From Desulfamplus sp. (GTDB taxonomy: Bacteria > Desulfobacterota > Desulfobacteria > Desulfobacterales > Desulfobacteraceae): a DNA stretch of 64,000 bases. This document shows, piece after piece, positions 24,026 through 37,261 of this stretch; position 1 is the first letter of the stretch; the number at the start of each line of letters is the position of its first letter. The position numbers and the translations under genes were made by a program. The notes under the pieces are model-generated. The model was not told the DNA's origin, did no database searches, and worked only from the letters and a program-made list of their open reading frames with translations. The stretch covers positions 1 to 64,000 of the forward strand of contig JADFZJ010000013.1 in assembly GCA_015232555.1 (NCBI GenBank), in the 5' to 3' direction.

Positions 24026-27000
24026 ATGAAGACAGAAATTGAAGCCTATAAACCTGTTAATAACATAAGAATTGTAACTGCAACATCACTTTTTGACGGG
24101 CACGATGCCTCAATAAATATAATGCGAAGAATCTTACAGGATACAGGCGTTGAGGTTATACACCTTGCCCACAACAGATCTGTTCAAGAGTTTGTTGATG
24201 CTGCGGTTGCAGAAGATGTTCAAGGAGTTGCCATGTCAAGCTATCAAGGCGGACACATGGAGGCGTTCAAGTACATGGTTGATCTTCTTAAAGAAAAAAG
24301 TGCATCGCATGTTAAAGTTTTTGGCGGCGGCGGCGGTGTTATTGTTTCTGATGAAATCAAAGAGCTTGAAAAGTATGGCGTAACCAAAATCTATTCACCA
24401 GAAGACGGCAGCAAAATGGGTTTGCAAGGCATGATCAACCACATGGTTGAGAATATGGATTTTTCAACCCTAAACTATCACGAGCTTGATCCTGCTAAAC
24501 TCAATGTTGAAAATACAAAAACCATCTCAGGATTTATTACTGCTGTTCAAGAGGCAAAAGCTGGAACAAATGCAGACAGAGAAAATACTGCTCTTGGAGG
24601 CTCAGAATCTGAACGTAGAGCAGCAAACAGGCAAAAACTTGAAGAGCTTATGGCTGTTATCAACCCTCTTGCAGACAAGCACAATCCACCTGTAATAGGC
24701 ATAACTGGAACGGGCGGTGCTGGTAAATCTTCGCTTACAGACGAGCTTATAATCCGTTTTTTAAATGATATGGAAAATATCACCATTGCAATTATAAGCT
24801 GCGATCCATCAAGACGCAAAACAGGCGGGGCACTGCTTGGCGATAGAATCAGAATGAATGCTATTGCCGCTCCTACTATCTATATGCGAAGCCTTGCAAC
24901 AAGGGATTCAGGAAGCGAAGTTTCAGAATCCCTGCCAGAGGCAATTAAAGTTCTGAAAGCTGCGGGATTTGACCTTATTATTGCTGAAACTGCTGGAATT
25001 GGCCAGGGCGATTCCAATATTGTTAATATGGCTGATATCTCACTCTATGTTATGACCAGCGAATTTGGTGCCCCTTCTCAGTTAGAAAAGATCGACATGC
25101 TTGATTATGCTGATATTGTTGCTATCAACAAATTTGAGAAAAAAGGCAGTGACGATGCTTTAAGAGATGTAAGAAAACAGGTGCAGAGAAATAGAAAAGC
25201 GTGGAGCACAAATACGGCAGATATGCCTGTTTATGGAACCATTGCATCAAAATTTAATGATGATGGCGTTACTGCTCTGTATCACGGAATTGTTGAAACC
25301 ATTAAGCAAAAATGCGGAGATAAGTTAAGCGAACAGATTAAATTAAAACTAATCCCTAAAACTCCCAAACCTGCCCAGAAATTTTCATCTTCAAAAGCAA
25401 TTATTATACCAACAGAAAGAACCAGATATCTCTCTGAAATTTCCGAAACTGTTAGAAGTTACCACAAAACTACAGCAGAACAGTCAGCTTATGTGAGAAA
25501 ACTCTGGCACCTTGAAGAAACGCTTACTGTTCTAACATCGGGTAAAAATGAGGTTGCTTATAACTTACTTGAATCTTTAAAAAAAGAGATTGATGATGTA
25601 TCGTCAAAAATATTGCCAGAGACAAAAGAGATTGTAAAAAGCTGGAGCAGCATAAAGCAGGCATATTCAGGTGATGATTATGTTTACATTGTAAGAGGGC
25701 GTGAAATCAGAGTTCCTCTATACACTGAATCTCTCTCTCATACCAAGATACCTAAAATATCACTTCCTAAATTTAATGACCCAGGCGACATCTATACATG
25801 GATGAGAAAAGAGAATCTGCCAGGACTCTTTCCATACACTGCTGGTGTTTTCCCAATGAAAAGAACGAGCGAAGACCCAACCCGTATGTTTGCTGGAGAA
25901 GGGGGACCCTCAAGAACCAACAAAAGGTTTAAACTTCTTTCAAGCAACTATGAGGCAAAAAGACTTTCCACAGCATTTGACTCTGTAACTCTGTACGGAT
26001 GGGACCCTGCCGAGCGTCCAGATATTTATGGCAAGATTGGAACATCAGGGGTGAGTATCTGCACTCTTGACGATGTAAAACAGCTCTATGATGGGTTTGA
26101 TCTCTGCTCTCCAACAACATCTGTCTCCATGACCATTAACGGTCCAGCCCCAATGATGCTTGCTATGTTTCTTAACACTGCAATAGATCAACAGATTGAA
26201 AAGTTTAAAGCAGATAAGGGAAAACTTCCATCAGACGAAGAGGCAACAGCAATAAAGGCAATGGTTCTGTCAAATGTCAGAGGAACAGTTCAGGCTGATA
26301 TTTTAAAAGAGGATCAGGGTCAAAATACCTGCATATTCTCAATTGATTTTGCCCTTAAAATGATGGGAGATATTCAGGAGTATTTTATCAGGCATAATGT
26401 AAGAAACTTCTATTCTGTATCAATTTCTGGTTATCACATTGCAGAGGCTGGTGCAAATCCAATTACCCAGCTTGCCTTGACCCTATCCAACGGCTTTACT
26501 TATGTAGAATATTACCTCTCACGGGGTATGGATATCAACTACTTTGCACCCAATCTCTCCTACTTTTTCTCAAATGGAATGGATCCTGAATATACAGTTA
26601 TTGGTCGTGTAGCAAGAAGAATATGGTCAATTGCAATGAAAGAGAAATATCATGCCTCAGATGCCTCACGTAAACTAAAATATCATATTCAGACATCAGG
26701 AAGGTCTCTGCATAGTCAAGAGATACAGTTTAACGATATCCGAACAACTTTGCAGGCACTTTGTGCTATTTATGATAACTGTAACAGTCTTCACACAAAC
26801 GCTTTTGATGAGGCAATTACAACTCCAAGTACAGAGTCTGTTAGAAGGGCACTTGCGATTCAGCTTATCATCAACCGTGAGTGGGGGCTTGTAAAGAACG
26901 AGAACATGAATCAGGGCAGCTTTATTGTTGAGGAGCTTACCGATCTTGTTGAAGAAGCAGTTCTAATAGAGTTTGACAGAATCACGGAACGCGGCGGTGT

Positions 27001-27385
27001 AATGGGTGCAATGGAAACTGGTTATCAGAGAGGTAAAATTCAGGAAGAGTCAATGTATTATGAACATCTGAAACACTCTGGAGAATACCCGATTATTGGT
27101 GTAAACACCTTCCGTGATGAGACTGCTGATTATGATGCTATGACCTCTTATCTTGAACTTGCCAGAGCATCTGATGATGAGAAAGATGATCAGCTTGTAA
27201 GGCTGAAAACATTCCATGAACAGCATAAAGAGGAGTCTTCAGAAGCTATCACAAAACTTAAAGCAGCCGCTCTTGGAGGTAAAAATCTCTTTGAAGAGCT
27301 GATGGAGACCGTCAGATCATGTAGTCTTGGTCAGATTACTAACGCCCTTTACGATGCTGGTGGAAAATATAGAAGAAATATGTAA
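24026..27385 (+). CDS. icmF: Fused isobutyryl-CoA mutase IcmF (B12 domain, G-protein chaperone, mutase)
   Basis: IcmF interconverts isobutyryl-CoA and n-butyryl-CoA by an adenosylcobalamin radical and carries its own GTPase chaperone. The 1119 residues run: cobalamin-binding domain (about 15-150, [12 protein letters not shown]), MeaB/ArgK-like P-loop GTPase (GTGGAGKSS near 225-236) and the TIM-barrel mutase (about 590-1119) with [33 protein letters not shown] and the fusion itself separate IcmF from ordinary methylmalonyl-CoA mutase. Some IcmF-like enzymes prefer pivalyl- or isovaleryl-type substrates, so the exact substrate is not settled. Nearby acyl-CoA ligases could supply the CoA thioesters. 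Confidence 0.93.
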
Positions 27386-27564: not shown

Positions 27565-28260
27565 ATGGCAGATAAAAAGAAAATAATGCTGGTTGAAGAC
27601 CACCCAATTTTCAGATTGGGACTTGCAGAGCTTATCAATCAGGAGGATGATCTTATTGCCTGCGGCACTTCAACGGATGTTGATCAGGCGATCAAAGAGA
27701 TGGAAAACCTTGAGCCAAACCTTATCATAGTTGACATAAGTCTTAAAAATTCTGATGGCATTGATCTTGTTCATCATGTCAAAAAGCACAGAGATATTCC
27801 AATTTTAGTTCTCTCCATGCATGATGAATATCTCTATGCCCAGCGTGCCCTCCATGCTGGTGCTAAAGGCTACATTATGAAACAAGAAGCAATGGAATCG
27901 GTTGTTACAGCAATTCACCATGTCCTCTCTGGCAAGGTCTATTTAAACGAGAATCTCAAAGAGCACATTCTTTCCAATATTGCAGAAAATTTCAAAACAA
28001 AAGACAAAACTCCAATGGACAGGCTCACAGACAGAGAGCTTCAAGTATTTAAAATGGTTGGAAAAGGTTTTACGTCAAAGGAGATCGCAATAAGGCTCTT
28101 TCTAAGCATAAAGACAATTGGGACATATAGGGAGAGAATTAAAGAAAAATTGGGTTTGAAAAATGCGAATGAATTGGTGAGATGTGCTGTTCATTTTGAA
28201 AAAACAGGTCAAATTCAATCAGTTAGTGATAATTCAGATTCATCAGACGAAACAAATTAA
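27565..28260 (+). CDS. NarL/FixJ-type response regulator, orphan
   Basis: This 231-residue two-domain regulator has a receiver (about 5-122) with acidic Glu11/Asp12, phosphorylation site Asp57 in IIVDISL and Lys106 in GYIMK. The LuxR-type HTH is at about 160-218 (LTDRELQVFKMVGKGFTSKEIA, then LFLSIKTIGTYRERI). A charged, Ser-rich tail follows. No histidine kinase gene is nearby. It sits between icmF and the first acyl-CoA ligase, so it is a natural candidate regulator of this catabolic block; that link is inference from position. The ribosome site is weak (AAGGT). Confidence 0.92.
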   Translation: MADKKKIMLVEDHPIFRLGLAELINQEDDLIACGTSTDVDQAIKEMENLEPNLIIVDISLKNSDGIDLVHHVKKHRDIPILVLSMHDEYLYAQRALHAGAKGYIMKQEAMESVVTAIHHVLSGKVYLNENLKEHILSNIAENFKTKDKTPMDRLTDRELQVFKMVGKGFTSKEIAIRLFLSIKTIGTYRERIKEKLGLKNANELVRCAVHFEKTGQIQSVSDNSDSSDETN

Positions 28261-28397: not shown

Positions 28398-30026
28398 ATG
28401 AGTCAGAAACACAACATGACAGATTATGATGCAACCTATCGGGAGTTCAAATTGGAAGTTCCTGAGTATTTCAACTTCTCAGGAGATGTGATTGACAAAT
28501 GGGCACAAGACCCTGATAAACTTGCTATGTGGTGGGTAGATGATGCCGGCAATGAGGTAAAGAAGACTTTTCTTGATATCAGTAATGCCTCAAAAAAACT
28601 TGCTAATGTGTTAAAGGCTCAGGGTGTTAAACAAGGTGATGTTATCCTTGTAATCCTGCCGAGAAATATAGAGTGGTGGGAAACTTTTACGGCATGTATC
28701 CGCATGGGTGCTCTGAACTCCCCCGGTACAACTCAGTTGACAGCAAAAGACCTCGAATTTAGAGCAAATAAGGCAGAAGCCGTCTGTATTATCACCAATA
28801 ACGATATTGCTGCAAGATTTGACACAGTATCTGATAACTGCCCCAATGTTAAAACAAAGATCGTTATAACAGAACCAAGAAAGGGTTGGCTTTTTTACAC
28901 TGACGAAGTTGCAAAAGCATCTGACAAGTTTGAAACTGCAAAGACAAAAAGTGATGATCACTGCATCGTCTATTTTACATCTGGAACTACAGGTTTTCCA
29001 AAGATGGCTTTGCACACCCATGCATCATATCCAATCGGACATCAGATTACTGGTAAATTCTGGTTAGACCTACAGCCTCAGGATATGCACTGGAATATCA
29101 GTGATACAGGATGGGCAAAGGCAGCATGGAGCAGCTTTTTTGGACCTTGGAATTGTGGTGCTGCACAATTTATCCACCACACTGACCGTTTTGATCCAAA
29201 AAAGACTCTTGAACTTCTTGCAAAATACCCTGTTACAACAATGTGTGGTGCCCCGACTATCTACAGAATGTTGGTTCTTCAGGACCTTTCACAATACAAA
29301 TTCCCGACACTTCGCCATTGTGTAGGTGCTGGTGAGCCTCTAAACCCTGAAATCATTGACGTTTGGAAAAAAGCTACTGGCTGTACTATCCGTGATGGTT
29401 ATGGTCAGACTGAAACAGTTCTGCTATGTGGCAGTTTCCCCTGTATAGAAGCCAGATTTGGCTCAATGGGCAAACCATCACCAACTATTGACCTTAAGGT
29501 TATTGACGAAAAAGGCGAAATTTTACCTCCTGATACAGAGGGTGATATTGCAATTCGTGTAAAACCAAACCGCCCAGTAGGTCTGTTCAAAGAGTATTGG
29601 AAAGAGCCTGAAAGAACTGCCTCTGTCTATCGTGGTGATTGGTATCTGACAGGAGACAGAGCTTATGTTGATAAAGATGGATATTTCTGGTTTGTAGGTC
29701 GTGCTGACGATGTTATTCTCACATCTGGTTACAGAATAGGTCCATTTGAGGTTGAAAGTGCTCTTATCGAACATCCTGCAGTTGCAGAGTCAGCAGTTGT
29801 TTCAAGTCCAGACGAAACACGCGGAGAAGTTGTAAAGGCATTTGTTATCCTTGCTCCTGGTTATACAGCAAGCGATCAACTTGCAAAAGAGATTCAGGAA
29901 CATGTTAAAAAAGTTACTGCTCCATACAAGTATCCGAGAAAAATTGAATTTGTAACAGCTCTGCCAAAAACTGTAAGCGGTAAAATACGTCGTATAGAGC
30001 TTAGACAGGCTGAATGGGGAAAATAA
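28398..30026 (+). CDS. AMP-forming acyl-CoA synthetase, medium-chain (ACSM-like)
   Basis: This ligase activates a carboxylic acid to its CoA thioester with ATP by way of an acyl-adenylate. The 542 residues show the ANL motifs: YFTSGTTGFPK near residues 192-202, DGYGQTE near 332, YLTGDRA near 416 and the C-terminal hinge and lysine region GKIRRIELR. HWNISDTGWAKAAW and PWNCGAAQF are typical of medium-chain/benzoate-type ligases (ACSM group), so the acid could be a fatty, branched or aromatic one. AGGAG lies 6 bases before the ATG. It is the first of three dissimilar ligases within 7 kb and is followed by a strong hairpin. Confidence 0.9.
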   Translation: MSQKHNMTDYDATYREFKLEVPEYFNFSGDVIDKWAQDPDKLAMWWVDDAGNEVKKTFLDISNASKKLANVLKAQGVKQGDVILVILPRNIEWWETFTACIRMGALNSPGTTQLTAKDLEFRANKAEAVCIITNNDIAARFDTVSDNCPNVKTKIVITEPRKGWLFYTDEVAKASDKFETAKTKSDDHCIVYFTSGTTGFPKMALHTHASYPIGHQITGKFWLDLQPQDMHWNISDTGWAKAAWSSFFGPWNCGAAQFIHHTDRFDPKKTLELLAKYPVTTMCGAPTIYRMLVLQDLSQYKFPTLRHCVGAGEPLNPEIIDVWKKATGCTIRDGYGQTETVLLCGSFPCIEARFGSMGKPSPTIDLKVIDEKGEILPPDTEGDIAIRVKPNRPVGLFKEYWKEPERTASVYRGDWYLTGDRAYVDKDGYFWFVGRADDVILTSGYRIGPFEVESALIEHPAVAESAVVSSPDETRGEVVKAFVILAPGYTASDQLAKEIQEHVKKVTAPYKYPRKIEFVTALPKTVSGKIRRIELRQAEWGK

Positions 30027-30172: not shown

Positions 30173-31456
30173 ATGGCCGAGCTTAAACCGCGTTGGGGAC
30201 AGCCCCTGACAGGAATCATTTCTCTCATCTGTTTTACACTCATTGCATGGGGTCTTTGGTATGTTTTCAGTGATCCAAGAGGTTTTGTAGGAGCATTTCC
30301 ATATCCATTTGTAATGTATCTTGCCATGATGATTCTGGTTGGTCTTTGGCAACACATGTTCTGCGGAGACTGGCCCTTTCAAGATATGCCCCAGCCTTTA
30401 AGAGGGGTTGTTGAAACAGTCATTAATCTTGTTTTGACATGGTTTGTAATCCATATAGTTTTTTACAAAGTTCTTGGACTTGGGTTCAATTTTTTAAGTC
30501 AGGACAACCTAAATGCACTCGCAAGCTCAGGAGCACTTGCACCAGATATTGCAACAAAGTTTGCAGAGGCTAATGCAAAGAGTCTGTTTGGACAGAGAGC
30601 TGTAGTTTGCTTTGTTTTGATTGGTTTTTTTACCTATCCTGTTGTAAGTATTCTTTTTGCTAAATGGCCAGTTAGACCAAGCGATCTAAAACAACCTATG
30701 GCAGGACTTGTTGAAATAGGCTGGTGCTCTCTGATTACTCTTTTCTTCTATACAGCCCTTATTGTTCCTTTCTGGGGTATGATTTATGGCAAAGCATTTG
30801 GTAGTTCAATCGGACTAAGCCTTCCTTGGTGGGGCGGTATATCTGGAATCACTCATGTGCATTGGGTATTTGGATGGTGGGAATGGATGATCGTAGCACT
30901 TTTTATGACCGCAAACGTATGGAGAATGAAACCGTGGTCGTCAATTACTCTGCCGCAGCCTCTTAAAGGTTTAGTATCATTCTTTTGTATAGTTGTAATT
31001 GGTTATGTGATGGCTATTATTTGCGTCAAACTCGCTCCATTATGGTTAGGAGATTCTTTTTATCACATTGAAGTTAAGGATGCTGCTGGTGCTGTTGATG
31101 CTGCTAAAACTACAGCAGAACAGACCCGTTTCCTCTGGTATCATGCAGCAGAAATTGCAGGCTTTACACTTATTCCTTTCCTTGCATGGCATCACTACTT
31201 TGATGATATGTCTCCGATGTCAGTTGACTCATGGGGAGGTTTCTGGTTCAGAACCGCTGGTGTTATGGTTCTTTGTGTAATCAACTATATTGTCTTCTAT
31301 TACATTGGATGGGGACAGTGGGGACTTGGAAATCCACATTGGGATCATAAGTTTGTACACGGTGAGTCTCTTATCTGGAATTTCTGGTGGATTATTCCAC
31401 TACTTTGGAACGAGTGGTTCTTCCACAAATGGCCATTCTACACGCATGAACACTAA
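30173..31456 (+). CDS. Tryptophan-rich polytopic membrane protein with a fourfold QPxxG repeat
   Basis: This 427-residue integral membrane protein has roughly ten hydrophobic segments and very high Trp content, especially at 219-250 and 376-421. A short motif, often after Trp-Pro, recurs just before a membrane span at about residues 10 (GQPLTGIIS), 74 (PQPLRGVVE), 174 (KQPMAGLVE) and 262 (PQPLKGLVS), which points to internal duplication of a two-span unit of about 65-100 residues. I do not recognise the family. Its place between acyl-CoA ligases suggests transport of the acid or membrane-linked activation. AGGAGG-like GGAGG precedes the ATG. Confidence 0.75.
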   Translation: MAELKPRWGQPLTGIISLICFTLIAWGLWYVFSDPRGFVGAFPYPFVMYLAMMILVGLWQHMFCGDWPFQDMPQPLRGVVETVINLVLTWFVIHIVFYKVLGLGFNFLSQDNLNALASSGALAPDIATKFAEANAKSLFGQRAVVCFVLIGFFTYPVVSILFAKWPVRPSDLKQPMAGLVEIGWCSLITLFFYTALIVPFWGMIYGKAFGSSIGLSLPWWGGISGITHVHWVFGWWEWMIVALFMTANVWRMKPWSSITLPQPLKGLVSFFCIVVIGYVMAIICVKLAPLWLGDSFYHIEVKDAAGAVDAAKTTAEQTRFLWYHAAEIAGFTLIPFLAWHHYFDDMSPMSVDSWGGFWFRTAGVMVLCVINYIVFYYIGWGQWGLGNPHWDHKFVHGESLIWNFWWIIPLLWNEWFFHKWPFYTHEH

Positions 31457-31589: not shown

Positions 31590-33269
31590 ATGCAGTTACC
31601 CCAATACGAAGTAGGAAAAACAACCATAGGTCAATTAGTAGATATAGTTGCACAAGAGTTCGGTGATAACAATGCACTTGAGTATCACAAACTTGGAATC
31701 AAGTATAATTATCGTGAGCTCAGAGATATATGCAATAATGTAGCAAAAGGGTTGATGGCATTAGGAGTTAAAAAAGGTGAAAAGATAGCAATATGGGCAA
31801 ACAATGTTCCTGAATGGCTGCTTACACAATACGGAAGTTCAAAAATGGGAGCTGTGCTTGTAACGGTAAATACAAATTATCGCAGCTTTGAGCTTGAATA
31901 CCTTATGAAACAGTCAGACAGCACAACAATTCTTATGATAGGAGGTGTCAGAACTCCTAACGAGTATATTGAGGTAATTAATGATGTCTGTCCTGAACTT
32001 GCAACTTCAGAACCTGGTAAGCTAAATAGCGAAAAACTTCCAATGCTTAAAAATGTTATCTTCATAGGAGACGGAAGACCTGCTGGAATGTTCAACTGGA
32101 ACGATATTATGGAGATGGGTAAATCAATCTCTGATGCGGAATTGATAGATAGACAAAACAGCCTTGATCCTGATGATGTTATCAATATGCAATATACTTC
32201 AGGCACAACAGGATTCCCAAAAGGTGTTATGCTTACCCACACCAATTTGATTGGAAACGCCAAAAGTCTTGGAGAGTGTATGCAGCTCTCTTCTGTTGAT
32301 ACTATGTGTATCCCTGTTCCATTTTTCCACTGTTTCGGCTGTGTTCTTGGCACATTAACCTGTGTAGTCTCAGCAGCAGCAATGGCACCTGTTGTGGCAT
32401 TCACCCCTGATGCTGTTCTTGAAACAGTAGAGGCATCCAAATGCACAGCACTTCACGGAGTTCCGACCATGTTTATTGCAGAGCTTGAAGCTATGAAGAA
32501 AAAAACCTACGACACTTCAAAGCTACGCACAGGCATCATGGCTGGCTCTCCATGCCCAATTGAAGTGATGAAGCAGGTCGTTGGAGTTATGGGTGCTTCT
32601 GAAATGTGCATAACTTACGGTCAGACCGAGGCGTCACCTGGTATAACCATGACTACTACAACTGACTCTCTTGAGCGTAGGGTATCTACAGTTGGTAAGT
32701 CACTTCCCAATGTTGAGGTGAAAATTGTCGATCCAGTCACCAATGAGGAGGTTGAGCGTGGGGTACAAGGAGAACTTTGCACCAGAGGCTATCATGTAAT
32801 GAAGGGTTATTACAAAAATCCCGAAGGAACAGCCAAGGCAGTCGATTCCGAAAAATGGCTGCACACAGGAGATCTTGCAATTATGGACAAAGAGGGTTAC
32901 TGCAAGATTACTGGACGTATCAAGGATATGATCATCAGAGGCGGAGAAAATATCTACCCGCGTGAGATAGAGGAGTTTCTCTACACCAATCCTAAGATTA
33001 AAGATGTTCAGGTTGTTGGCGTTCCAAGCATCAAATATGGAGAAGAGGTTGCTGCATTTATTCAGATCAAGGATGGTGAAAAAGCTACAGAAGAAGATAT
33101 GAAAGCATTCTGTAAAGATAAAATTGCATTTCACAAGATTCCTGCATTTTTCTTTTTTGTAAATGAGTATCCAACAACTGCAAGCGGAAAAATCCAGAAA
33201 TACAAACTGCGTCAAAAAGCAACTGCTGACTTAGGACGTGAGGCAGACGCAAAAGTACAGACAGCCTGA
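31590..33269 (+). CDS. AMP-forming acyl-CoA synthetase, second type (fatty-acid ligase)
   Basis: The 559 residues of this ANL-superfamily ligase have MQYTSGTTGFPKGVMLTH near residues 200-217, ITYGQTEASPG near 336, LHTGDLAIMD near 426 and the C-terminal SGKIQKYKLR lysine motif. The PFFHCFGCVLG segment and overall form are those of medium/long-chain fatty-acid ligases (FadD-type). An insertion at about 120-150 with an extra loop (ATSEPGKLNSEKLP) separates it from ligases 1 and 3. An AAGGAGAGG ribosome site is clear. It starts 94 bases after the hairpin following the membrane protein gene and ends before a 33-base palindrome. Confidence 0.9.
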   Translation: MQLPQYEVGKTTIGQLVDIVAQEFGDNNALEYHKLGIKYNYRELRDICNNVAKGLMALGVKKGEKIAIWANNVPEWLLTQYGSSKMGAVLVTVNTNYRSFELEYLMKQSDSTTILMIGGVRTPNEYIEVINDVCPELATSEPGKLNSEKLPMLKNVIFIGDGRPAGMFNWNDIMEMGKSISDAELIDRQNSLDPDDVINMQYTSGTTGFPKGVMLTHTNLIGNAKSLGECMQLSSVDTMCIPVPFFHCFGCVLGTLTCVVSAAAMAPVVAFTPDAVLETVEASKCTALHGVPTMFIAELEAMKKKTYDTSKLRTGIMAGSPCPIEVMKQVVGVMGASEMCITYGQTEASPGITMTTTTDSLERRVSTVGKSLPNVEVKIVDPVTNEEVERGVQGELCTRGYHVMKGYYKNPEGTAKAVDSEKWLHTGDLAIMDKEGYCKITGRIKDMIIRGGENIYPREIEEFLYTNPKIKDVQVVGVPSIKYGEEVAAFIQIKDGEKATEEDMKAFCKDKIAFHKIPAFFFFVNEYPTTASGKIQKYKLRQKATADLGREADAKVQTA

Positions 33270-33443: not shown

Positions 33444-35054
33444 ATGTCCCTGAACCAAGTGTGTTTTGATATCCTCACCCCAGTCAAGTTTCTCAGCCGT
33501 TCTGCTGAGGTATATGATGATAAAATCGCTGTTATATACGGAGAGAAACGTTATAGTTACACCGAATTCTACAAAAGAGTGAACCGTCTTGCCAGTGCAT
33601 TGAAAAAAATCGGCATTCAAAAAGGGGACAAAGTGGCATTCATCTGCCCAAACACGCCGCCAATGTTAGAAGCACATTATGCAGTTCCCATGATAGGAGC
33701 TGCCTTGGTAAGCATAAATATCCGTCTCTCCGCCGGTGAAATCGCCTATATTCTTGACCATTCAGATGCTAAAGCAGCTTTTGTTGATAATGAATTTGCT
33801 GGTGTGGTTACTCCTGTTATTGCTGATATTCCTAAGGTAAAGACCTTTGTAAATATTTGTGATATCAGCAATGATAAACCTCTTAACGGTATGGAATATG
33901 AAAAATTTTTAGCAACAGGCTCTGATGCTCCAATTGTTCCTGATGTTGATGATGAGTATCAAGTTATGACTATTAACTATACAAGCGGAACAACGGGACG
34001 CCCCAAAGGGGTTATGTATCATCACAGAGGTGGATATTTGAATGCGCTTGGCGAGTTGCTTGAGTTCAATGTAAATTCAACTTCCGTATATCTCTGGACA
34101 CTTCCCATGTTCCATTGCAACGGATGGTGTTTCACATGGGGAATTACCGCTGCTGGAGCTACCCATGTATGTTTAAGAAAAGTGGTTCCGGAAGAGATTT
34201 ATCGCACTGTCGAACAAGAGGGGATAACACATCTTTGTGCTGCTCCTACAATTCTTATCGGAATGTCCTCATATGCCACAACCAACAATATCAGACTGAA
34301 AAAACAGCTTGAGATTATGACTGCTGGTGCACCTCCTGCCCCCACAGTAATACAGAATATGGAAAATTTAGGTGCCAATATCACTCAAGTTTATGGGCTT
34401 ACAGAAGTTTATGGTCCACACAGTGTCTGCCAGTGGCAGGAAAAATGGGATAGCCTGTCTCCTGAAGAGAAGGCTAAGATCAAGGCAAAACAGGGAGTTC
34501 CCTATATTGTGGCTATGCACATGGATGTTGTAAATTCTGAGACCATGGAGCCAGTACCAAGAAATGGTGAAGTGATAGGTGAGATAGTTATGCGTGGCAA
34601 CAATGTAATGCTTGGCTACTATAAAGACCCTGAAGCTACGGAAGCTGCATTCAGAGGTGGTTGGTTCCACAGCGGAGACTTGGCTGTAATGCACTCCAAT
34701 AACTATGCACAGATTATGGATCGTCAGAAAGATATCATCATAAGTGGTGGAGAGAATATATCAACAGTAGAGGTGGAAAGTACCATATACCGTCATCCTG
34801 ATGTAATGGAAGTTGCTGTTGTATCTATGCCAGATGACAAATGGGGCGAAGTACCAAAGGCTTTTGTTGTACCTAAACCAGGTACAAATCCAACAGCCGA
34901 GGATATTATTAACTTTTGCAAGGATAATTTGGCTCGATTTAAAGCACCAAAATTTGTTGAATTTGGCGAGCTGCCCAAAACTGCAACCGGTAAAATCCAG
35001 AAATTTAAATTAAGAGATAAAGAGTGGGAAGGAAGAAAGCGAAAAGTTAATTAA
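33444..35054 (+). CDS. AMP-forming acyl-CoA synthetase, third type (PMFHCNGW subgroup)
   Basis: This 536-residue ANL ligase has INYTSGTTGRPKGVMYHHRG near residues 173-192, PMFHCNGWCFTWG near 221, VYGLTEVYGP near 316, FHSGDLAVMH near 409 and TGKIQKFKLR near the C-terminus. The MFHCNGW and HRGGYLNALGE features place it in the subgroup with short/medium-chain ligases such as DmdB and plant acyl-activating enzymes. It is less like ligases 1 and 2, so the three are probably not recent duplicates and may act on different acids. AGGAG lies 8 bases upstream. It is the last gene of the block. Confidence 0.9.
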   Translation: MSLNQVCFDILTPVKFLSRSAEVYDDKIAVIYGEKRYSYTEFYKRVNRLASALKKIGIQKGDKVAFICPNTPPMLEAHYAVPMIGAALVSINIRLSAGEIAYILDHSDAKAAFVDNEFAGVVTPVIADIPKVKTFVNICDISNDKPLNGMEYEKFLATGSDAPIVPDVDDEYQVMTINYTSGTTGRPKGVMYHHRGGYLNALGELLEFNVNSTSVYLWTLPMFHCNGWCFTWGITAAGATHVCLRKVVPEEIYRTVEQEGITHLCAAPTILIGMSSYATTNNIRLKKQLEIMTAGAPPAPTVIQNMENLGANITQVYGLTEVYGPHSVCQWQEKWDSLSPEEKAKIKAKQGVPYIVAMHMDVVNSETMEPVPRNGEVIGEIVMRGNNVMLGYYKDPEATEAAFRGGWFHSGDLAVMHSNNYAQIMDRQKDIIISGGENISTVEVESTIYRHPDVMEVAVVSMPDDKWGEVPKAFVVPKPGTNPTAEDIINFCKDNLARFKAPKFVEFGELPKTATGKIQKFKLRDKEWEGRKRKVN

Positions 35055-35105: not shown

Positions 35106-35954
35106 TCAAAAAAATTGAACTTCAACTTTCTCAGGCAGCAGTGAATTTTGATATAGAGATAGAAAAAAATATTTAAGTGCCTTAACCTTTAACTCATCTA
35201 AATTGCACTTCAACAATTCAAAATATCTGCCCACATAGCCGTTATCCAGCCCGAGTTTTTTTGCTCCTGCTGCAATAACCTTATCAATATTATTATACCC
35301 CTCCTGACGCGATTTGTATAAGATTTCAAGAGCATCTTTAATCTCATCATAATGAGATATAACAATCTCTCTTCGTACAACCCACAGAGCAAATACAAAA
35401 GGAAGTCCAGTTGTCTCATACCAGAGATTTCCAAGATCAATACGGTATTTAAACCGCTTTTCCCATGGCTGACTCATTGCGGCATCTCCTATAATCATTG
35501 CAGCGTCAGCATCAGAGGGCACATCACTTACAGTTCTTAACTTTCCTGTGATAAAATTGGGGTTTATCCCTTTTTGTATGACAACAAGTTTTACAAGTGC
35601 TGCTGATGTAGCTGAATCCTGAGTTAATACAATGGTCTTACTATCAAGCTCCTCTATTGGATAGTTGGTCATCAAGATTACGCTCAACACCTCACCATGA
35701 CAGGAAATTGAGAGATCAGGAAGAATCATCAGCTCTTTATGGTTCATGCCATAAAATGCTGAAGAGACAGGGCTTATCTCAAGTTGACTATTTTTTATCA
35801 TTGAATTTAAAACTGCTGGAGGACCCTCTATCATCTCAATCCACTCTGGTTTAAGTCCATGATCCAATCCATAATAGACAGGAGATGCATTAATATAGTC
35901 AATTTTACCCATTAACAGTTTTTTTTTAGCTGTCTGCTCTTTTTCTCTGCTCAT
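35106..35954 (-). CDS. mqnA: Chorismate dehydratase MqnA (futalosine menaquinone pathway)
   Basis: MqnA makes 3-enolpyruvyl-benzoate from chorismate, the first step of the futalosine route to menaquinone. The 282 residues have a periplasmic-binding-like fold with the family start KIDYINASPVYYGLDHG (about 17-33), ISPVSSAFYGMN and the IIGDAAM segment. The ATG overlaps the stop of the deaminase gene by 4 bases, so the two are translationally coupled. The first 15 or so residues are a polar extension. mqnE and mqnC lie 16 kb away in this window; mqnB and mqnD are not seen. Confidence 0.92.
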   Translation of the reverse strand: MSREKEQTAKKKLLMGKIDYINASPVYYGLDHGLKPEWIEMIEGPPAVLNSMIKNSQLEISPVSSAFYGMNHKELMILPDLSISCHGEVLSVILMTNYPIEELDSKTIVLTQDSATSAALVKLVVIQKGINPNFITGKLRTVSDVPSDADAAMIIGDAAMSQPWEKRFKYRIDLGNLWYETTGLPFVFALWVVRREIVISHYDEIKDALEILYKSRQEGYNNIDKVIAAGAKKLGLDNGYVGRYFELLKCNLDELKVKALKYFFLSLYQNSLLPEKVEVQFF

Positions 35955-37261
35955 TTTGTGCTCTTATACTCAACTATTCTCATTATTATCTCTGAAATAT
36001 TGTTTTCAGATGTGTTTAACGAAAAGTTTAAAGGGATATAGATAAAATAAGCCCTTTTGCCCTTTTCGATAGTTCCTGCTATTTTGCCAAAACTTAAAGC
36101 CTCAGCACTATTTACCGTTGCCATGGCAAGTATTTCAGATGGATTTATATTTGGAAATTTTTCAGCCACATACAACATCTCATCAAACATGTTTATTGAC
36201 TCTGTACTTGCAAGACTATCAGTTCCAAGGGCTGGCTTAAGACCATATTTGAGAAAAAGGGGGATATCTGGCAATTTTTGGTGAAGGTTAAAGTTGCTTT
36301 TAGGGCAGAACACAGGCTTTGCTTGAGTCTTTGCAATAATCTCAATATCTTGACTATCTACATTAAGCAGGTGCACGGCAAGAGTACTATTGTCAAGAAG
36401 TCCCATATCTTGCAAATATTGAACAGGCGATCTTGAAAGGGCAAACTTACTATAAAAATTTTTATTCAATTGATTTAAATTGTTTGAAGAGCTTTTCCAT
36501 AAAGAGAAGTCAATTCCTCGCTCTTTTAGAAAATCTGCCCATCTGCCTTGTCCAGTTGTTATAAACTCTGTCTCATCATTTGACTCTGCAACATGGATTG
36601 AAAATGGAAGGTTTGCCCTTTTAGTCTGCTGTTTTAAAAGTCTCAAAAGCTCTGGTGAGGTGGTGTGCGGGGCGTGTCCAGCTATTGACCTCTTTTTACG
36701 TTGAATTGAGCTGATATCTTTACCTGATATATTTTTAAAATTCTCTCCAAAACTTCCAAGATACTCCTGAAACCAGACTCCGCCGATATCTGAATCTGCA
36801 AAGATATCTTCTGTGATGCCAAGAGTAGAAATTTCACCGACAAGAGATGTGCCTGTTTCAACTGCTGTTTTTATTGCCTTTTCAGCCTCTAATCGAAGAG
36901 TATCAACTGAACACTCCTCCCGCTGTTTAATAAGCTCTCTTACCCATCCATTAAATCCGATGTTAAAGGGGATTTTTCCCTTTAGAGCAGAAAGTTCAAA
37001 ATGGGTGTGAGCATTGGCAAGTGCTGGCATTAAGATTCCCGGACCGTAATCAATCACTTCTGTGCGAGTATCAGAAGCAGCAGAGGAATAAGAAGATATA
37101 TTATGGTTTGAGTTATTTAGTGATATATTGCTGCGTAATCTATTGCAGGAGTTACCAGCAGAAATATCAACAATGATTCCATTTTCAACAGAGATAAATC
37201 CATTTTCAATTATCTGCCACGGGTTGATGAGCAGATGTCCTGCTCTATGAATTTTCAACAT
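35951..37261 (-). CDS. mqnX: Amidohydrolase, probable aminodeoxyfutalosine deaminase
   Basis: This 436-residue metal-dependent amidohydrolase has metal ligands His85/His87 in NAHTHFELSALKG, further His in GHAPHTTSPELL and HVAESNDETEF, and Asp in LGTDSLAS. Overlap with mqnA, and the need for a 6-amino-6-deoxyfutalosine deaminase in organisms using MqnE, make that role likely (inference from family and context). Residues about 38-67 are a Ser/Asn-rich, non-conserved insertion (NISLNNSNHNISSYSS) between the first beta strands and the metal site. A second low-complexity patch lies at about 256-268. Confidence 0.82.
   Translation of the reverse strand: MLKIHRAGHLLINPWQIIENGFISVENGIIVDISAGNSCNRLRSNISLNNSNHNISSYSSAASDTRTEVIDYGPGILMPALANAHTHFELSALKGKIPFNIGFNGWVRELIKQREECSVDTLRLEAEKAIKTAVETGTSLVGEISTLGITEDIFADSDIGGVWFQEYLGSFGENFKNISGKDISSIQRKKRSIAGHAPHTTSPELLRLLKQQTKRANLPFSIHVAESNDETEFITTGQGRWADFLKERGIDFSLWKSSSNNLNQLNKNFYSKFALSRSPVQYLQDMGLLDNSTLAVHLLNVDSQDIEIIAKTQAKPVFCPKSNFNLHQKLPDIPLFLKYGLKPALGTDSLASTESINMFDEMLYVAEKFPNINPSEILAMATVNSAEALSFGKIAGTIEKGKRAYFIYIPLNFSLNTSENNISEIIMRIVEYKSTK

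Follow-up and report, generated by a model that had tools for sequence, protein, structure and literature searches.

A candidate short-chain carboxylate transporter of repeated two-helix units, encoded among acyl-CoA ligases in Desulfamplus

Introduction

What is the task of a large, tryptophan-rich membrane protein whose gene is embedded in a run of genes for acyl-coenzyme A (CoA) ligases? This question is raised by a stretch of 64,000 nucleotides from Desulfamplus sp. (contig JADFZJ010000013.1, positions 1 to 64,000; here called the window), which encodes such a protein, here called F1. A first reading of the letters by a model (the original prediction) described a fourfold repeat, recognised no family and proposed either a new type of carboxylate transporter or a membrane anchor for vectorial acylation. 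In anoxic sediment, a main route of carbon is the oxidation of fatty acids by sulfate reducers and syntrophs; how propionate, butyrate and isobutyrate enter these organisms when concentrations are low is often unclear. The analysis reported here makes it likely that F1 is a ten-helix secondary transporter of the inner membrane, which imports short-chain monocarboxylates that are then trapped as CoA thioesters.

Results

F1 genes lie among genes of acyl-CoA metabolism

The open reading frame (ORF) had been predicted with correct coordinates, strand and length (Table 1). In the window the genes are arranged in the order IcmF, response regulator (RR), ACS1, F1, ACS2 and ACS3, all on the plus strand. 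Further F1 loci were collected with a pattern-based scan of a genome contig collection, from which the best 80 of 86 encoding stretches were taken; some of them are pieces of one genome (e.g., JACRBZ). Pfam assigned representatives of the neighbour clusters to methylmalonyl-CoA mutase, acyl-CoA dehydrogenase, thiolase, CoA-transferase families III and I, acetyl-CoA hydrolase/transferase, 3-hydroxyacyl-CoA dehydrogenase and enoyl-CoA hydratase. A panel of 13 such proteins was searched within 5 kb of F1 by tblastn, since longest-ORF gene calling confuses antisense ORFs in G+C-rich loci. Where the flanks of F1 measure 8 kb or more, 41 of 49 loci carry an acyl-CoA gene, compared to one of 32 control stretches of 10 kb from eight F1-bearing genomes (two short ones, L198 and L199, were dropped; Fisher P 1e-13), a contrast that is partly circular and somewhat inflated because the panel was chosen from F1 neighbourhoods, and in which related loci are not independent. 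Over all 80 F1 loci, 61 have a panel gene.

An enzyme that activates the acid was found in 35 of the 49 loci: only an AMP-forming ligase in 19, only a CoA-transferase in 15 and both in one. In many loci F1 is directly adjacent and co-directional to the ligase or the CoA-transferase. On the tree of 71 F1 proteins both labels are scattered; the label "ligase" requires 11 changes, all 11 of them forced by well-supported branches, and the label "CoA-transferase" 12, with 10 forced, but loci at contig ends were scored "none", so that some of these changes are not real swaps. The activating chemistry varies around a constant F1, which suggests that the constant need is to bring the free acid in.

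Sodium:solute symporters occupy the same operon slot

Orthologues of ACS1 with at least 72% identity were identified in 22 of 58 genomes. F1 follows directly downstream in eight of them (45-196 nucleotides behind ACS1), ACS1 and F1 are on separate contigs in one (G008), and 13 genomes have no F1, nor was any seen in their ACS1 regions. One of the F1-less loci (G027) ends at a contig edge and was left out; among the 12 that could be read, 11 have a gene for a sodium:solute symporter (SSF) as the next large membrane protein gene. The symporter is 529-545 amino acids long where complete (one is cut by a contig end). Two representative symporters belong to PF00474 (E 1e-43 and 8e-36), and the others are 76-90% identical to them according to tblastn. 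A genome of the window's own genus (G009) has the order IcmF-RR-ACS1-small-SSF-(306 amino acids)-ACS2-ACS3. Its IcmF, RR, ACS1 and ACS2 and the beginning of ACS3 are 85-95% identical to the window genes, and F1 is replaced by a small protein of 105 amino acids, an SSF symporter and a protein of 306 amino acids. The best models for this symporter (L264) are the VC_2705-type, ActP and MctC symporters, all below cut-off.

The same exchange is seen at a second, unrelated kind of operon. CaiB-type CoA-transferase orthologues with at least 79% identity are present in 12 genomes around Desulfacinum hydrothermale (G241). The slot directly upstream of them holds F1 in five genomes, and another five have genes for a small protein, for an SSF symporter and for about 300 amino acids; one has neither and one (G405) is cut by the contig end. 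G241, which has F1, and G217 and G448, which have the symporter, share a genus, and in all three the slot lies between a mutase gene and two CoA-transferases; the G217 assembly contains no F1 match. Within 5 kb of the 80 F1 loci (the available flank) no relatives of the exchanged SSF proteins were found. Non-orthologous replacement within a kept operon, seen twice and within genera, is strong circumstantial evidence that F1 and the SSF symporters are functionally equivalent.

SSF (also SSS) proteins of the ActP/MctC/VC_2705 branch and F1 thus use one slot beside the same ligase or CoA-transferase, are integral membrane proteins of similar size and presumably have the same substrates. Their profiles show no similarity (HHalign probability 0.2% against 10 SSF proteins; no Pfam match at E ≤ 10), and SSF symporters have the LeuT fold, whereas F1 is predicted to have ten helices as five hairpins. 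The symporter operon here called SSF_a, moreover, includes a small partner gene, and the gaps around F1 in the window (under 150 nucleotides) contain no gene of that size and leave no room for one. F1 probably works like ActP and MctC without being a member of their family.

F1 is built from repeated two-helix units

The motif QP(L/M)xG occurs at residues 10, 74, 174 and 262 of the window protein. According to composition 0.047 copies of QPxxG are expected, and not one of 100,000 shuffles reached even three. Alignment, tree and structure prediction were based on 71 F1 sequences including the window protein, in which Q, P and G of the motif are invariant or at least 90% conserved at all four sites. 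Ten transmembrane helices were assigned from predicted helices and hydrophobicity (residues 12-32, 46-63, 76-100, 139-161, 176-196, 230-249, 264-287, 320-342, 354-378 and 400-416). The four motifs are real, and as predicted each is followed by a membrane span, since they start helices 1, 3, 5 and 7. The other observations of the original prediction were confirmed in part. Trp-Pro, which was thought to precede most motifs, is located within 13 residues upstream of two of the four and is missing at the other two. Trp is indeed abundant (31 of 427 residues, 7.3%), but its enrichment at predicted membrane edges is not significant (17 of 31 at most four residues from a predicted helix end, 13.1 expected, P = 0.098).

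Stretches containing Trp and Pro come after helices 2, 4, 6 and 10, the last being the C-terminus (...FFHKWPF). This suggests a unit plan of QPxxG, helix, outer loop, helix and WP that is repeated five times, the fifth time without QP. The fourfold repeat of the original prediction holds for the motif-bearing units, but on the predicted helices a division of F1 into five tandem two-helix units, with four clear and the fifth degenerate, is the better description. A hidden Markov model (HMM) of the unit, built from the related subfamily F4 (see below), was used to count domains at i-E ≤ 1 in the 71 F1 sequences. Of the 71, 70 have a domain that begins at residue 10, 61 have one beginning at residues 73-75 and 67 one at residues 261-262, and units 3 and 5 were missed. 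Searched against 4744 ORFs from loci L001-L100 (with some duplicates), the unit HMM gave 62 matches at E ≤ 0.1, all of which fall among the 103 F1/F2 ORFs of that set.

Similarity between non-overlapping units was compared to that in 500 shuffles preserving hydrophobicity classes. The units of the window protein are alike (z 5.1, with none of the 500 shuffles as high) and resemble those of F4 (z 7.7), and F4 units resemble one another as well (z 6.5), while an SSF symporter cut into five pieces as a control gave z 0.7 internally and z -0.3 against F4. Two results count against this division: an off-phase cut of F1 still reached z 3.0, and unit 5 scored z 0.1-1.5 against all F4 units. Within F1, the pair of units 1 and 5 scored z 3.1 and that of units 4 and 5 z -0.3. 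The fifth unit is thus a tentative assignment to which its sequence adds little and which rests on helix phase and on the intact fifth unit of F4. HHalign between F1 units was uninformative because the alignment is shallow.

Predicted topology and structure

Confident AlphaFold2 models were obtained for the window protein (71 sequences; predicted local distance difference test score, pLDDT, 83.8; predicted template modelling score, pTM, 0.82) and for a homologue of 401 amino acids (L090; pLDDT 86.5, pTM 0.87). In the 71 sequences Lys and Arg have a frequency of 0.112 on the motif side and of 0.065 on the opposite side. This bias suggests that the motifs and both termini of the predicted helix bundle are in the cytoplasm, as for a 10-helix carrier.

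Foldseek searches of the Protein Data Bank (PDB) with the two models yielded 509 and 406 matches with E ≤ 10, none of them with E ≤ 0.001, and none of 126 matches to viral models reached that threshold. The best VIA superpositions, with Z 4.2 (172 residues, root-mean-square deviation 6.4) and Z 5.2 (101 residues, 4.9), were both to chains of G-protein-coupled receptors and were judged to be noise. TehA is absent among the 50 matches listed for each Foldseek run, which does not exclude a likeness to TehA.

A conserved pair of ionisable residues in helix 8

His324 is present in all 71 F1 sequences and in all seven sequences each of the related subfamilies F2 and F3; Glu327 is present in 71 of 71, 7 of 7 and 5 of 7, respectively. 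His61, His228, Glu237, His340, His341 and Glu398 are invariant within F1 and are not conserved outside it. F1 replaces symporters of the sodium type and has this conserved His-xx-Glu in helix 8, which together suggest that transport might be coupled to protons through His324 and Glu327; we put this forward tentatively, at somewhat less than even chances.

A proposed superfamily of F1 and at least three further subfamilies

No match to F1 was found in Pfam (E ≤ 10), NCBIfam, PHROGs or a profile search of PDB sequences, so that the original prediction was right in recognising no family, and no confident match to a transporter family without internal symmetry appeared. A literature search yielded no paper that we recognised as dealing with the family, which means little for a family without a name. 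One divergent F1 protein had a Pfam match with E 1.3, and two F2 proteins matched Ureide_permease (E 0.0012) and TMEM_230_134 (E 0.044); all were below cut-off and were regarded as noise. A Pfam scan of an F3 protein gave no match.

The nearest named relatives of F1 are encoded in Desulfamplus metagenome-assembled genomes (MAGs; 87-93% identity). F1 was detected in 14 of 58 genomes searched and in six of ten within the genus (both counts include its own genome, and one of the six is partial), a distribution that is patchy. Of 395 genomes drawn evenly across the phylum, again including its own, 16 have F1 at E < 1e-190 and nine more have only remote relatives. The record names of the F1 loci are those of sulfate-reducer and syntroph lineages or of unspecific "Deltaproteobacteria", "Proteobacteria" and "bacterium" MAGs. 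Neither F1 nor F2 had a match in 72,556 plasmids.

Profile comparisons place F1 in a superfamily with F2, F3 and F4 (HHalign probability 99.0, 99.8 and 68.5%, respectively). F2 and F3 are homologous to F1 from end to end with about 22-25% identity and share His324, Trp250 and Pro421 with it; F2 has kept two to three and F3 none to two QPxxG motifs, thus the motif is eroded in both. F4 is shorter, with shorter loops, and consists of five plain units with four QPxxG and one HPxxxG motif, each followed by two hydrophobic stretches. The alignment of F1 and F4 is shifted in register, with residues 10-90 of F1 on residues 222-300 of F4 and thus unit 1 on unit 4, as would be expected for repeats. Helices were predicted for F1 alone; F1 shows the ten helices and the repeated QPxxG-helix-loop-helix-WP unit that define the superfamily, and F4 belongs to it by its units. 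F1 is best regarded as a new family, without a name so far, that probably does work of a known kind.

The subfamilies differ from F1 in their neighbours. F2 and F3 genes lie beside genes for metallo-beta-lactamase (MBL)-fold proteins in 14 of 14 loci, whereas F1 lies beside CoA enzymes. A CobW-type GTPase is found in six of seven F2 loci and a GntR-type regulator in two; the F3 loci have a protein of about 300 amino acids without Pfam match (7/7), a protein with a CxxCH motif (3/7) and a GntR-type regulator (1/7). According to NCBIfam the MBL-fold protein carries a twin-arginine translocation signal (one was scanned). F4 adjoins PPDK_N, PEP-utiliser and UPF0261 proteins (in L176 according to Pfam, in L177 by eye; PEP, phosphoenolpyruvate). 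In being separate, the PEP-utiliser and PPDK_N proteins resemble the two parts of phenylphosphate synthase. An importer placed next to the enzyme that starts a pathway would suit these contexts, but so would a membrane partner of an enzyme.

Discussion

Proposed function

Gene context indicates that F1 probably serves carboxylate uptake. F1 would carry short-chain monocarboxylates into the cell, a co-encoded AMP-forming ligase or CoA-transferase would trap the imported acid as CoA thioester, and IcmF or enzymes of beta-oxidation would then take over the CoA esters. In the window the substrates are likely to be acids of the isobutyrate/butyrate type because of IcmF and the MbcS-like ligase. Where F1 lies beside a mutase and CaiB-type transferases the substrate is probably propionate, and beside thiolase/dehydrogenase sets it is probably butyrate. 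F1 itself would be built by the packing of five two-helix units; a QPxxG turn in the cytoplasm would open each of them except the fifth, where it is lost. A more far-reaching version, to which we give about one chance in three, is that F1 represents an unrecognised class of secondary transporters with a new fold, in which the five units of one polypeptide are possibly arranged with pseudo-fivefold symmetry, that it repeatedly swaps with Na+-dependent SSF symporters in anaerobic fatty-acid degraders, and that the superfamily at large takes in the substrates on which several other activating or hydrolysing enzymes act.

Several observations weigh against carboxylate import. Eight of the 49 full-flank F1 loci have no panel gene at all. 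The ACS1 slot of G049 holds an enoyl-CoA hydratase gene and the CaiB-type locus of G470 holds neither transporter, and the replacement could mean that F1 and the symporters have a partner, and not an activity, in common. The charge bias is modest, and Asp and Glu are also more frequent on the motif side (0.086 compared to 0.066). Neither AlphaFold2 model met a solved or known transporter fold with Foldseek or VIA, so that the transporter mechanism has no structural support. Panel genes are found in only two of 14 F2/F3 loci, all of which have the MBL-fold protein, and in none of the two F4 loci, which have PEP-synthase-like proteins. Homologous subfamilies thus lie beside enzymes that do not use CoA, and the shared chemistry of the superfamily may therefore be something other than carboxylate import.

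Alternative explanations

The original prediction was borne out in part: gene context (the acyl-CoA genes around F1 and the symporter exchange at two kinds of operon) lends good support to the new type of carboxylate transporter, while the membrane anchor is disfavoured. As an anchor or docking platform for a CoA-activating enzyme, with the acid crossing by diffusion, F1 would explain why it is directly adjacent to ligases or CoA-transferases. This is quite improbable, because loci with only CoA-transferases are about as frequent as those with only ligases and the replacement is a transporter; the partners are unrelated (ANL ligases, CoA-transferases of families I and III) and scattered over the F1 tree, and ten conserved helices with invariant ionisable residues exceed what an anchor needs. 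An electron-transfer anchor or another membrane subunit of a redox enzyme or hydrolase, recruited to acyl-CoA metabolism, is very improbable. The MBL-fold neighbours of F2 and F3, the CxxCH protein of F3 and conserved His residues in or near helices would suit it, but the ten F1-neighbour clusters scanned with Pfam include no redox membrane partner, and His61, His228, His340 and His341 are not conserved beyond F1. Export is improbable too, whether F1 acts as an efflux valve for accumulated acids or in reversible product export. Secondary carriers can run both ways, and some loci (L037, L044, L085 and L091) have no acyl-CoA panel gene near F1; some of the panel-less loci, e.g., L085 and L091, look stand-alone. 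SSF symporters, however, with which F1 is exchanged, are uptake systems, and F1 is linked to degradative genes (IcmF, acyl-CoA dehydrogenase, thiolase) in fatty-acid-oxidising organisms.

A passive or gated carboxylate anion channel, with five hairpins around a central pore as in TehA and SLAC1, overlaps with import and has perhaps one chance in four. The TDT family (PF03595), to which these proteins belong, includes carboxylate carriers, and we know of no QPxxG/WP signature in it. F1 shares with it ten transmembrane helices as five tandem hairpins, the fifth degenerate in F1, and QPxxG opens every second helix from helix 1 to helix 7. For TehA one report describes ten helices as tandemly repeated hairpins with quasi-fivefold symmetry (PMC3172217). 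The same report gives 1-5 residues for the outer loops of SLAC1, compared to about 13-38 residues in F1 (PMC3172217). Detectable homology was rejected: there is no Pfam match at E ≤ 10, and HHalign of F1-F4 with 15 PF03595 proteins gave probabilities of 0.1-2.8%, with 0.1% for F1 and the maximum of 2.8% among F2/F3. These proteins were taken by strand and position from 15 of 16 loci (L286 gave none). The likeness is kept as an analogy.

If import by F1 is correct, F1 would be the carrier of many Desulfobacterota whose F1 protein has no family assignment, and a transporter family with an odd number of internal repeats would be added; to our knowledge five-hairpin transporters are rare, TehA/SLAC1 being the one case. 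The exchange of a Na+ symporter and F1 in one slot within one genus would then be a natural experiment on the selection of coupling modes.

Features and additional observations

Table 1. Positions of F1, its units, its neighbours and related proteins. Units and residues are numbered on the window protein; positions without locus name refer to the window.
Feature	Position or size	Strand	Basis or remark
F1 protein, 427 amino acids, ten predicted transmembrane helices (TM)	30173..31456	+	ORF, 71-row alignment, AlphaFold2 model
Unit 1, residues 5-70: GQPLTG, TM1, loop, TM2, ...GDWPF	30185..30382	+	motif, unit HMM
Unit 2, residues 71-170: PQPLRG, TM3, long loop, TM4, ...AKWPVRP	30383..30682	+	unit HMM
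Unit 3, residues 171-258: KQPMAG, TM5, loop, TM6, ...WRMKPW	30683..30946	+	motif, helix phase
Unit 4, residues 259-349: PQPLKG, TM7, long loop, TM8 with His324-xx-Glu327	30947..31219	+	unit HMM
Unit 5, residues 350-427, degenerate: DSWGGF for QPxxG, TM9, loop, TM10, ...FHKWPF	31220..31453	+	helix phase
His324-Ala-Ala-Glu327 in TM8, widely conserved ionisable pair	31142..31153	+	F1/F2/F3 alignment
IcmF, fused isobutyryl-CoA mutase/GTPase	24026..27385	+	NF045497, 1867 bits
NarL/LuxR-type response regulator (RR)	27565..28260	+	matches below cut-off; kept in cluster in relatives
ACS1, AMP-forming acyl-CoA synthetase	28398..30026	+	best NCBIfam MbcS, below cut-off
ACS2, AMP-forming acyl-CoA ligase	31590..33269	+	best NCBIfam PRK12583, below cut-off
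ACS3, AMP-forming acyl-CoA synthetase	33444..35054	+	PRK08162, over cut-off
F2 subfamily	about 470 amino acids		L126 and others
F3 subfamily	about 410 amino acids		L171 and others
F4 subfamily	363 amino acids		L176, L177
F4 loci with separate PEP-utiliser and PPDK_N proteins and UPF0261	L176:2511-8531, L177:4076-9640		
F4-related protein, 255 amino acids	L184:9037-9804		Klebsiella plasmid NZ_CP110524.1
F4-related protein, 255 amino acids	L185:9001-9768		E. coli NZ_CP075480.1

The SSF_a operon (L264, L277-L280) encodes, besides the symporter, a small membrane protein and a protein of about 300 amino acids whose N-terminus looks secreted. In some F1 loci a protein with cyclic-nucleotide-binding, CBS and DUF294 parts is encoded upstream of ACS1 (L029:2178-4127); proteins of this kind are found beside actP. 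The F2/F3 loci with a protein of the ten-helix type and an MBL-fold protein (L164-L175, L181, L182) appear to hold an operon that merits description. A stretch of about 100 amino acids resembling the N-terminus of F2 (L180:6035-6334) adjoins ORFs that by eye resemble a sodium:solute symporter and an AMP-forming ligase.

The F4-related protein of 255 amino acids is annotated as hypothetical and is 31% identical to residues 89-357 of F4. Three Klebsiella plasmids encode it, as do 13 of 5426 E. coli genomes; in both records viewed its gene is next to an IS5-type transposase gene. In the window, two genes on the minus strand at 35106-37261 resemble, by eye, menaquinone genes of the futalosine pathway (MqnA-like and amidohydrolase).

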